Positions 13,786 to 64,000 of a stretch of 64,000 nucleotides of DNA are shown one piece after another (positions within the stretch are counted from its first letter, which is position 1; every line of letters begins with the position of its first letter). The notes beneath the pieces are model-generated. The model did no database searches and was not told where the DNA came from. It worked only from the letters and a program-made list of their open reading frames with translations. Source of the DNA: an uncultured Ectothiorhodospiraceae bacterium (GTDB lineage: Bacteria > Pseudomonadota > Gammaproteobacteria > Nitrococcales > Nitrococcaceae). The DNA is taken from positions 62,001 to 126,000 of the forward strand of contig CAJXKP010000001.1 in the NCBI GenBank assembly GCA_913055565.1. The letters run 5' to 3'. The position numbers and the translations under genes are program-made.

Positions 13786-13951
13786 CAGCAATCCCAATTA
13801 TGTGATCCCCAGGAAGGGCGCGTGCTCGCGTTACCCCCTGCCGGGGACGCCATAAACCGTCCCTCGGGGCTCGACGGCGGCCTTCCCTGGCCGCAGACGC
13901 CCTCGGCAGGGGCTAACGCGACCACCTCGAAGGTCAAAATGAGAATTGCTG
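13786..13951 (-). mobile_element. MITE-like element, copy 1 (between gmk and rpoZ)
   Basis: A 166-bp non-coding element. The right end ATGAGAATTGCTG and the left end CAGCAATCCCAATT form terminal inverted repeats. The flanks ATAATCTGC (13777-13785) and ATAATCCTGC (from 13952) look like a 9-bp target duplication with one indel. Parts: outer B 13786-13823, arm 13824-13851, inner 13852-13895, arm 13896-13923, outer A 13924-13951. The 28-nt arms are inverted repeats of each other. The inner segment holds a GCGGCC/GGCCGC hairpin. The minus-strand order A-arm-inner-arm-B is collinear with copy 2. It begins 88 bases upstream of the rpoZ ATG. Confidence 0.85.
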
Positions 13952-38850: not shown

Positions 38851-38899
38851 CCCGAGCCAGGGTGAGACCAACGTGGTTCCCCGGCGGGGGAGCGCGCCG

Positions 38900-39064
38900 C
38901 AGCAATTCTCATTTTGGCCTTTGAGGCGGTCGCGTTAGCCCCTGCCAAGGGCGTCTGCGGCCAGGGAAGGCCGCCGTAGAGGCTCCAAGGAAGGTTTATG
39001 GCGTCCCTTGGCGGGGGGTGACGCGACCAGGCGCGCTCCTGGGATCCCATGATGAGAATTGCTG
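38900..39064 (+). mobile_element. MITE-like element, copy 2 (between gltD and hemE)
   Basis: A 165-bp element with ends CAGCAATTCTCAT and ATGATGAGAATTGCTG. It is flanked by a perfect 9-bp duplication, AGCGCGCCG (38891-38899 and 39065-39073). Parts: outer A 38900-38927, arm 38928-38955, inner 38956-38999, arm 39000-39028, outer B 39029-39064. The arms pair over 28 nt. The inner part has GCGGCCAGGGAAGGCCGC. It encodes no transposase. The element starts 49 bases after the gltD stop and ends 83 bases before the chosen hemE start. Confidence 0.92.
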
Positions 39065-60905: not shown

Positions 60906-61244
60906 GCGATGAGTCTAGCATCTATCGGATGATAGGCATCGATAGCCGCCGAGTTATCCACTGGACTAATCGGTCGTCAAGACTTGACAAAGCCCCTGAC
61001 CGCCTAAACCGCCATTTAGCCGGCGCTGCAACCCGGAATCTCGTAAGTCCCTGTTTTTAATAACTAACGCAACTACTGGTGGGTTTCTCGCCAATGCAAA
61101 GACCAGCTCACCACAACGGGGACTTACGTCATTCCCGCCCATTTTCTCCACATATTTATCCACAACTTCTGTGGACGAACGTGAGCTTGATAACCCACCG
61201 CGTGGCGGCGATCATCCACCCGCCAAACCCAGCGGTTGGAACCC
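60906..61244. promoter_or_regulatory. Gap upstream of priA with DnaA-box cluster and inverted repeat
   Basis: No gene is present. It holds a perfect DnaA box TTATCCACA (61156-61164), near-boxes TTCTCCACA (61144-61152) and TTATCCACT (60954-60962), and an opposed TGTGGACGA (61170-61178). A 10-bp inverted repeat, CGTAAGTCCC (61042-61051) and GGGACTTACG (61118-61127), brackets an AT-rich patch (TTTTTAATAACTAA). It may be a DnaA-controlled promoter or a replication-related site. Confidence 0.45.
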
Positions 61245-63443
61245 ATGCCTCAGCCCAACGTGCGCATCGCCGTACCCGGCCCTTTCTACGAGGGCTTCGA
61301 TTACGCCTGGCCCCATGATGGCCTAGCGCCTCGACGCGGCATGCGGGTCCGAGTGGGATTTGGCCGCCGTGAATGTGTCGGTCTCATCGTGGCCACCGAC
61401 GTCGAGACCAGCATCGCCGAGTCACGCCTGCGCGAGGTCAGCGATGCCCTCGACATCAGCCCCGTGCTCGCCGAACCGCTGCTGGATTTCATCCTATGGG
61501 CGGCGCGCTATTACCACTACCCACCGGGGGACGCCATTTATACCGCGCTACCCCGTTGGCTGCGCGAGGGCCGCCCGGCAGAGCCCAGTAACGAGACCTA
61601 CTGGCAACTGACCGACGCCGGGCGTGACATGGACCCGGACACGCTCGCGCGGCGGGCGCGCCGCCAGGCGAGCCTCCTCGCCCGCCTCCAGGCCCGTGGC
61701 GAACTGGGCGCCGGGCATTTCCCCGAGGGCCAGGGCGATTGGCGCGGCGGCCTCCAACGCCTCACCGAGCGCGGCCTGGCCGAGCCCATCAGCCGCCCCG
61801 CCTACGCCCTCATACGTGGCCACGGCACCGCCAGCGCACCGGCGCTCAACGCCGACCAGGCCACAGCGGCCCGCGCCCTCAGTGGCGAGCAAGGCTTCCA
61901 GACCGTACTGCTCGACGGCGTCACGGGCAGCGGTAAAACGGCCGTCTACCTGGCCGCTATTGAGGACATCCTGGCACGTGGCCTTCAGGTGTTGGTGATC
62001 GTTCCGGAGATCGGGCTCACGCCGCAATTGGTAGACCGGTTCGCGGAGCGCCTGGACCACCCTCTCGTCGTGCTCCATTCCGGGCTCAGTGACGGCGAGC
62101 GCCTGGGGGCCTGGCTCGCAGCGCGCGACGGCGAGGCCGGCGTGATCATCGGCACCCGATCGGCGGTGTTCACCCCCCTGGCACGGCCCGGCTTAATCGT
62201 CGTTGATGAAGAGCACGACACGTCCCTGAAACAGCAGGAGGGCTTTCGCTATCAGGCGCGCGACATGGCCGTGGCTCGAGCCAGCCGCCTAGCCATCCCG
62301 GTCGCGCTCGGCTCTGCGACCCCTTCCCTGGAGAGCCTCGATAACGTCCGCCGAGGTCGCTATCATCATCGACGACTCCCTGCGCGCGCCACCGGCGCCG
62401 CCATGCCAGCATTTCGTCTCCTCGATATTCGCGGACGCTCCCTGCGCCACGGGCTATCGGCGGCCCTTTTGGAGCAGACCCGCGAGCACCTCGATCAAGG
62501 CGGGCAGGTACTGCTGTTCCTCAATCGCCGCGGCTATGCGCCAACGCTGCTCTGTCATGAGTGCGGCTGGGTTGCAGAGTGTCAGCGCTGCGATGCGCGC
62601 TATACCTACCATCAGGCCGGGCGCCGGCTCCACTGCCATCACTGCGATTCAGCGGGCGGCGTGCCGATCGCGTGCCCGGCCTGCGCCAGCCCGGATCTCA
62701 GGGCGGTGGGCGTCGGCACCGAGCGCCTGGAGGAGGTGCTGTCCGAAGAGCTCCCCGAGACTGCACTCGTGCGCATCGACCGCGATAGTACCCGCCGCAA
62801 AGGCGAGTTCGAGCGACGTCTGGAGCGCGCGCGCAACGGTGATGCTCGCCTGCTCCTCGGGACCCAGATGCTAGCCAAGGGCCACCACCTGCCGGCCGTG
62901 ACCATGGTTGGCATCATCGACGCCGACCAGGGCCTGTTCGGTAGCGATTTTCGCGCCCCCGAACGCCTCGCGCAGCTCATTATCCAGGTTGCCGGCCGCG
63001 CCGGGCGTGCGGACCGCCCCGGCGAGGTCGCCATCCAGACCCATCAGCCCGAGCATCCCCTGCTACAACAACTCATCCAACGCGGCTACCCAGCGTTCGC
63101 CGCCGATGCCCTCGCGGAGCGTCAGCAAGCGGGGCTACCCCCCTTTAGCGCCCTCGCCCTGCTGCGCGCTGAGGCCGTCACCGAGGAGGCACCCGAGGCA
63201 TTTCTGGCTGAGGCCGCCGAGCTGGCCGGCGCCGCGCGCGAGGTGGGCGTCCATTGCCTGGGCCCTATGCCAGCCCCGATGCCGCGCCGGGCAGGGCGCT
63301 ATCGGGCGCAATTGCTACTCCAGAGCACCGAGCGTCAACCGCTCCAGCGCCTGCTCGCGCGCATGACCCCAATGCTGAAGGGGCTCGACCATGCACGGCG
63401 TGTGCGTTGGTCGCTCGATGTTGACCCCGCCGAGATGCTTTAG
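61245..63443 (+). CDS. priA: Primosomal protein N' (replication restart helicase PriA)
   Basis: 3'-5' helicase that reloads the replisome at stalled forks. It has 732 residues. The N-terminal 3'BD domain (VRIAVPGPFYEGFDYAW) is followed by the helicase motifs LDGVTGSGKTAVYLAAIEDI and VVDEEHDTSLKQQEGFRY. A zinc-binding insertion has eight Cys (CHECGWVAECQRC, CHHC, CPAC). Motifs V and VI are GTQMLAKGHHLPAVTMVG and QVAGRAGRADRPG. The ATG 61245 was chosen over TTG 61236. Its TAG stop lies inside the target duplication of a mobile element. Confidence 0.98.
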   Translation: MPQPNVRIAVPGPFYEGFDYAWPHDGLAPRRGMRVRVGFGRRECVGLIVATDVETSIAESRLREVSDALDISPVLAEPLLDFILWAARYYHYPPGDAIYTALPRWLREGRPAEPSNETYWQLTDAGRDMDPDTLARRARRQASLLARLQARGELGAGHFPEGQGDWRGGLQRLTERGLAEPISRPAYALIRGHGTASAPALNADQATAARALSGEQGFQTVLLDGVTGSGKTAVYLAAIEDILARGLQVLVIVPEIGLTPQLVDRFAERLDHPLVVLHSGLSDGERLGAWLAARDGEAGVIIGTRSAVFTPLARPGLIVVDEEHDTSLKQQEGFRYQARDMAVARASRLAIPVALGSATPSLESLDNVRRGRYHHRRLPARATGAAMPAFRLLDIRGRSLRHGLSAALLEQTREHLDQGGQVLLFLNRRGYAPTLLCHECGWVAECQRCDARYTYHQAGRRLHCHHCDSAGGVPIACPACASPDLRAVGVGTERLEEVLSEELPETALVRIDRDSTRRKGEFERRLERARNGDARLLLGTQMLAKGHHLPAVTMVGIIDADQGLFGSDFRAPERLAQLIIQVAGRAGRADRPGEVAIQTHQPEHPLLQQLIQRGYPAFAADALAERQQAGLPPFSALALLRAEAVTEEAPEAFLAEAAELAGAAREVGVHCLGPMPAPMPRRAGRYRAQLLLQSTERQPLQRLLARMTPMLKGLDHARRVRWSLDVDPAEML

Positions 63444-63446
63444 CGG

Positions 63447-63610
63447 CAGCAATTCTAATTATGTGCCCCCAGGAGGGCGCGTGGTCGCGTTACTCCCTGC
63501 CGAGGGCGTCTGCGGCCACGGAAGGCCGCCGTCGAGCCTCCAGGGAGGGTTTATGGCGTCCCTCGGCAGGGGTAACGCGACCACCTCGAAGGCCAACATG
63601 AGAATTGCTG
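63447..63610 (+). mobile_element. MITE-like element, copy 3 (between priA and argS; inner segment reversed)
   Basis: A 164-bp element with ends CAGCAATTCTAATT and ATGAGAATTGCTG. The flanks CTTTAGCGG (63438-63446) and CTGTAGCGG (63611-63619) are a 9-bp duplication with one change. Parts: outer B 63447-63482, arm 63483-63510, inner 63511-63554, arm 63555-63582, outer A 63583-63610. The outer order on the plus strand is B then A, as in copy 1, but the inner segment reads TGCGGCC...GGTTTAT, as in copy 2. The inner part is thus reversed relative to the ends. Confidence 0.9.
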
Positions 63611-63629
63611 CTGTAGCGGCCTCACTATC

Positions 63630-63690: not shown

Positions 63691-64000
63691 ATGAAGCATC
63701 AGATCGCCCAGGACTTGCGCCAAGCCCTGGATCACCTCCAGAACCAAGGACAATTGCCGGCGGAAGCCGACGTCGCTGTTCAAGTCGAGCGCGGGCGCGG
63801 CGAAGAGCACGGCGATTTCGCCACTAATACCGCTATGCGCCTGGCCAAGCCAGCCAAGCGCTCGCCACGCGACATCGCCTTCGAGATCATCAATGCCCTG
63901 CCCGCTAACCCCTACGTCGAGCGCGTCGAGGTGGCCGGGCCCGGCTTCATTAATTTCTTCCTGACCGATGATGCCGCCCTGGCAGCGGTGGCGGCGGTCT
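63691..64000 (+). CDS. argS: Arginine--tRNA ligase (5' part; gene runs off the right edge)
   Basis: Charges tRNA-Arg with arginine. The first 103 codons are present, starting MKHQIAQDLRQALDHLQNQG. The N-terminal additional domain typical of ArgS is clear: GRGEEHGDFATNTAMRLAKP, ARSPRDIA-like KRSPRDIAFEIINALP and VERVEVAGPGFINFFLTDD. The catalytic domain lies beyond the window. priA-argS is a usual gammaproteobacterial neighbourhood. Confidence 0.93.
   Translation, partial: MKHQIAQDLRQALDHLQNQGQLPAEADVAVQVERGRGEEHGDFATNTAMRLAKPAKRSPRDIAFEIINALPANPYVERVEVAGPGFINFFLTDDAALAAVAAV

Follow-up and report, generated by a model that had tools for sequence, protein, structure and literature searches.

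The window, a stretch of 64,000 nucleotides from the draft genome of an uncultured Ectothiorhodospiraceae bacterium (G000; 2.72 Mb in 84 contigs, 94% complete), harbours three copies of a short palindromic element. Copy 3 sits in a 247-nt gap between a priA-like and an argS-like gene and consists of two outer ends (A and B) that enclose a pair of arms with a core between them (Table 1).

Table 1. Features of copy 3, its neighbouring genes and the other two copies in the window
Feature	Positions	Strand	Remarks
Copy 3, whole element, 164 nt	63447..63610	+	class 2: end A - arm - core - arm - end B
Copy 3 target duplication, left, 9 bp, CTTTAGCGG	63438..63446	.	8/9 identical to the right one
Copy 3 target duplication, right, 9 bp, CTGTAGCGG	63611..63619	.	
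Copy 3 outer end A, with terminal inverted repeat CAGCAATTCTAATTATG	63447..63480	+	
Copy 3 left arm, 28 nt	63483..63510	+	
Copy 3 core (inner segment), 44 nt, TGCGGCC...GGTTTAT	63511..63554	+	
Copy 3 core hairpin 1	63512-63517/63524-63529		loop ACGGAA
Copy 3 core hairpin 2	63542-63547 (loop)		loop AGGGAG
Copy 3 right arm, 28 nt	63555..63582	+	inverted repeat of the left arm
Copy 3 outer end B (reverse complement of CAGCAATTCTCATGTTGGCCTTCGAG)	63585..63610	+	
Copy 1 (L030)	13786..13951	-	class 1
Copy 2 (L038)	38899..39064	+	class 1; target duplication AGCGCGCCG matching 9/9
priA-like gene, upstream of copy 3	61236..63443	+	PriA_3primeBD, PriA_C
argS-like gene start, downstream of copy 3	63691..63999	+	Arg_tRNA_synt_N; continues beyond the window

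Read along the core, copies 1 and 2 carry end B (CAGCAATTCTCATTTTGGCCTTYGAG) on the 5' side and end A (the reverse complement of CAGCAATTCTAATTATGTGATCCCCAGGAGGGCGC) on the 3' side, whereas copy 3 shows the reverse order, with end A 5' and end B 3'. A sequence-only reading of the window had claimed that the core of copy 3 is reversed relative to the outer ends and that the arms are inverted repeats of each other, and we found both claims to be correct, as were the coordinates and the comparison with copies 1 and 2.

By its terminal inverted repeats, its 9-bp target duplications and its lack of coding capacity, the element is a palindromic MITE. The terminal inverted repeats (CAGCAATTCTcATt..) are present at both ends, most copies in this genome start with CAGCAATTCT with 9-bp duplications alongside, and the length of the target duplication is fixed at 9 bp, with most copies matching at 7-9 of the 9 positions. 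The copies are scattered and no gene is linked to the element. An end-pattern search of G000 retrieved, besides element copies, only truncated ends and a single copy lacking the hairpin, and revealed no autonomous partner with the same ends in this 94% complete draft, from which a partner could be absent; many MITEs outlive their autonomous partner. At L076 (G000:C9:64064-64113) both outer ends are kept and the central hairpin is cleanly absent, as expected for the outcome of palindrome deletion, and at L069 (G000:C37:16693) and L073 (G000:C13:35616) a truncated end B with a partial arm directly abuts other sequence. The gaps that hold the copies in this genome (n=49) are mostly divergent (21 divergent versus 5 convergent); in other genera, convergent gaps equal or outnumber divergent ones.

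When the inner orientation was tabulated over the core-bearing copies of G000 (at least 49, comprising 41 from the first searches and 8 found later), both orientations proved to be present, with 39 of the 49 in class 1 (like copies 1 and 2) and 10 in class 2 (like copy 3; L001-L010, of which L010 lacks end A and is classed from end B alone). Copy 3 is therefore not unique. The class change is seen solely at the arms' outer boundary (alignment columns 1-2 and 115-117) and, since the arms are inverted repeats, a turn of the 44-nt core is indistinguishable from a turn of the whole hairpin of ~100 nt. The target duplications of class 2 copies match at 8.1 of 9 positions on average, versus 2.3 of 9 between loci, showing that ends A and B arrived in one insertion. 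This excludes a crossover between copies and thereby refutes, in its crossover form, the recombination of two copies by which the sequence-only reading had allowed copy 3 to be explained. A near-identical flank plus element also occurs at two contig ends (L070, G000:C1:1-900, and L078, G000:C63:7400-8049), which are probably one locus assembled twice, with the contigs breaking at the hairpin.

Homologous loci in related genomes allow the orientation to be compared at one and the same insertion. In the congeneric genomes G011 and G013, five copies are homologous by the unique flanks that they share; the orientation is kept at four of them and inverted at the fifth (L221/L230). There, the flanks are identical at 897/984 and 315/410 positions and the 132-bp segment is identical at 117/132 positions when inverted versus 78/116 as it stands, in a comparison that relies on a fragmented G013 bin with 6% contamination and in which 57 nt beside L221 are better matched by another G013 contig end (L224). 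The breakpoints lie within the outer inverted repeats TTGTCAG/CTGACAA. None of five homologous pairs from G280 and G545 is inverted, bringing the total (G011/G013 and G280/G545) to one inversion in place among 10 homologous pairs. A candidate inverted pair from the latter two genomes (L198/L311) was dropped, since it proved to align, without inversion, with a second element next to it.

The two arms co-vary within G000 copies, with 27 double complementary changes versus ~2 expected, and when the two commonest variants are removed 19 double changes (14 of them complementary) are left versus 3.8 expected (P = 4e-10). Transversions make up 16 of the 27 double changes, unlike the G-U-bridged transitions expected from stepwise compensation, with the qualification that most of these transversions sit in two common variants and may thus stem from few events. 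Selection for pairing could be another source of the co-variation. Variants private to a single copy occur on both sides at L005, L007 and L037. In other genomes (L110-L169 from G115, G256, G110, G309 and G248) the core tip is borne on copy-specific stems of 30-45 bp that are nearly perfectly paired, and the outer stem sequence varies between copies with the pairing kept.

How two orientations come to coexist in one genome can be explained in several ways. If one ancestral flip had been followed by transposition of both forms, two standing subfamilies would be left per genome, and in G000 the data are compatible with a single class 2 clade (AU test, p = 0.25), while each class 2 copy is flanked by target duplications of its own, as separate insertions would be. 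Against this account, the core is undifferentiated between classes 1 and 2 and the arms carry no class-specific variants; the copy tree is star-like, with 9 class changes versus a shuffled mean of 9.3, i.e. random scatter. Elements of this kind, though with other arms and ends, also occur in an unrelated genome from another family (G098), where 28 loci retain both ends, 19 in the order A-core-B and 9 in the order B-core-A (8 distinct copies, as L247 and L251 share one core), and where an outer X/Y layer nested around A/B also occurs both ways round, all four combinations being found. A single origin of B-core-A is rejected in G098 (AU test, p = 0.0019), showing that flips recur, and the tree, built from the inner ends and core with the X/Y columns excluded (their inclusion falsely gives a single X/Y change), requires 7 changes versus 7.1 when shuffled, of which supported branches force at least 3. 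The G071, G256 and G280 families showed no flips against their own outer ends. The account by subfamilies, rejected in G098 with its two nested layers, is unlikely; even under it, the two unrelated families and the G011/G013 locus would each have to have flipped once or more. Ectopic gene conversion, by which an oppositely oriented copy would overwrite another via the arms such that the core is exchanged and not flipped, could draw on dozens of similar copies per genome, and as the inverted segments of L221 and L230 are no nearer to each other than they are to other copies, it may have acted at that locus. Against it, the arms are ~28 nt long and imperfect, which falls below the usual requirements of RecA, the core moves without the outer ends, and the one-copy variants on both arms fit an exchange within the copy; taken as a general explanation, we regard conversion as quite unlikely.

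The remaining two explanations concern the arms as substrates, either of an enzyme or of the assembler. A site-specific recombinase acting on the arms, as in an inverton, had been one of two mechanisms suggested in the sequence-only reading, and the inverted repeats on either side of the segment and the occurrence of both orientations would suit it. A recombinase requires a shared site, however, and the flipping families (G000, G098 and G011/G013) have unrelated arms, inverted segments of unequal length and no recognition sequence common to the inverting loci, which argues against this suggestion and leaves it unsupported. Moreover, many arms are mismatched, the two nested layers flip on different repeats and the 44-nt spacer is, to our knowledge, shorter than known invertase systems use, making a recombinase extremely unlikely. 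That an assembler turned the segment between the inverted repeats is conceivable in draft assemblies, in particular in G098, whose arms match perfectly over 28-31 nt, so that an error of assembly is less firmly excluded there. The perfect inverted repeats span just 6-15 nt in 7 of the 10 class 2 copies of G000, below common k-mer sizes, and the longest one reaches 17 nt in L230 (read off the sequence). An artefact is on this evidence very unlikely, also for copy 3, whose longest perfect inverted repeat is 13 nt and for which an assembly error had initially been entertained.

The reading that we favour, with a probability of about 0.68, is recurrent spacer inversion by polymerase template switching, the switching step itself being one that we infer. 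The long central hairpin of the MITE bears the conserved three-way-junction core at its tip, and the segment between the inverted arms would turn in place time and again, with no dedicated enzyme involved. The polymerase would, in the course of replication, jump to the opposite strand inside one arm, copy the spacer in reversed orientation and jump back inside the other arm, and the same process would copy arm onto arm, such that the arms stay matched while their sequence drifts. The quasipalindrome correction of Ripley and Lovett is reportedly the same class of process. Template switching between short inverted repeats is known to homogenise the arms and to invert spacers in yeast genes (PMC8604942), and our elements resemble that system in the homogenised arms, the inverted spacer, the recurrence and the dispensability of a site-specific sequence; they differ in that the published spacers are 2-5 bp, compared to 44 to ~130 nt or more in the bacterial repeat families with their nested layers. 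Since homogenised arms together with an inverted spacer constitute the published double signature, template switching is favoured, and it is the better fit of the two mechanisms suggested beforehand. The accompanying notion of an invertible cassette holds insofar as the inner part inverts, recurrently and in one case in place, whereas nothing supports a programmed cassette function: judging by sequence comparison, the inversion appears to be a passive, slow and recurrent rearrangement that extends beyond 44 nt.

Small hairpin-loop inversions of chloroplast genomes similarly involve a loop between short inverted repeats that is reported in both orientations across related genomes; those are single loci, whereas the repeat family described here is dispersed and has a conserved, structured core as its loop. 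The case is a confirmed recurrent inversion of a hairpin spacer in a MITE and a variation on a known process. The elements provide a natural record of spacer inversion over 44 to ~130 nt or more. The replicates run to dozens per genome and include nested layers, so that the rates and length limits of template switching in bacteria become measurable.

The core itself recurs in other genera with unrelated arms. Among the 276 Gammaproteobacteria genomes sampled, a covariance model detected it in 50 (45 of 216 genera), the carriers often scoring at least 18 core places, and in a phylum-wide draw 22 of 22 positives belong to the Gammaproteobacteria. It folds into a three-way junction with two CANGGANG loops, in which 97.4% of cells are paired and two-sided changes occur at 19 of 23 pairs; the covariation score is 0.65 versus 0.18 when shuffled, for an alignment that had been fitted to this structure and whose slid controls score 0.05-0.09. 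In Rfam 15 no family scored above its gathering threshold for the core, and a literature search with the core sequence letters returned no match. A strict core pattern scan of genome contigs retrieved three MAGs (Chromatiales, Acidiferrobacterales and an uncultured Gammaproteobacteria), and the exact G000 end-arm junction gave no match in that scan; plasmids, phages and E. coli genomes yielded no core except for one weak match on a Vibrio plasmid. This widespread structured repeat core seems to be undescribed.

The loops of the core point to a possible RNA-binding partner. In hairpin 2 the sequence is C-A-N-G-G-A-N-G: all 56 of 56 matches agree in the six fixed letters and vary only at the two N, and hairpin 1 is almost as strictly conserved; the CsrA/RsmA consensus is likewise an ANGGAN hexaloop closed by C-G. 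CsrA is present in 242 of the 276 genomes and in 49 of the 50 core carriers (G213 is not among the positives), an association (Fisher p = 0.007) that is confounded by phylogeny. G000 copies show no strand preference towards genes (about 10 SS and 9 AA), and outside G000 antisense placement of the GGA strand prevails (AA 14 versus SS 5; AA 12 versus SS 4), all of these being small counts from a rough, home-made gene caller. For a putative role as CsrA decoy the strand context gives no support, and the loop match remains a lead; a literature search on repeats and CsrA produced nothing on point. The core shares its two A-N-G-G-A-N hexaloops closed by C-G with Csr/Rsm RNAs, but unlike these it is a dispersed repeat whose GGA strand tends to lie antisense to the neighbouring gene outside G000. 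It is a long shot that the core is an undescribed class-wide CsrA/RsmA-binding RNA module, carried as cargo by unrelated MITE-like elements, each copy of which template switching would toggle between silence and transcription as a decoy. The structured core, absent from Rfam, has two invariant loops that match the motif which a global regulator recognises; whether this core works as DNA or as RNA, and from which strand, can be tested directly.

With bacterial MITEs the element has in common the terminal inverted repeats, the 9-bp duplications, the lack of coding and the ~50 intergenic copies; it departs from them in that its centre is a core common to unrelated MITE-like families across a class and in that an autonomous partner was not found. 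REP/BIME elements are likewise extragenic hairpins, but the present element is a three-way junction with two fixed-motif loops and a fast-changing stem. Some neighbouring cores are inverted in the manner of BIME pairs: at L055, L062, L066 and L091, 2-3 cores lie within ~300 bp with neighbours oppositely oriented. Finally, six core matches on one strand at a spacing of ~227 bp (G468:C1:94433-95640) are apparently a tandem array of the element.
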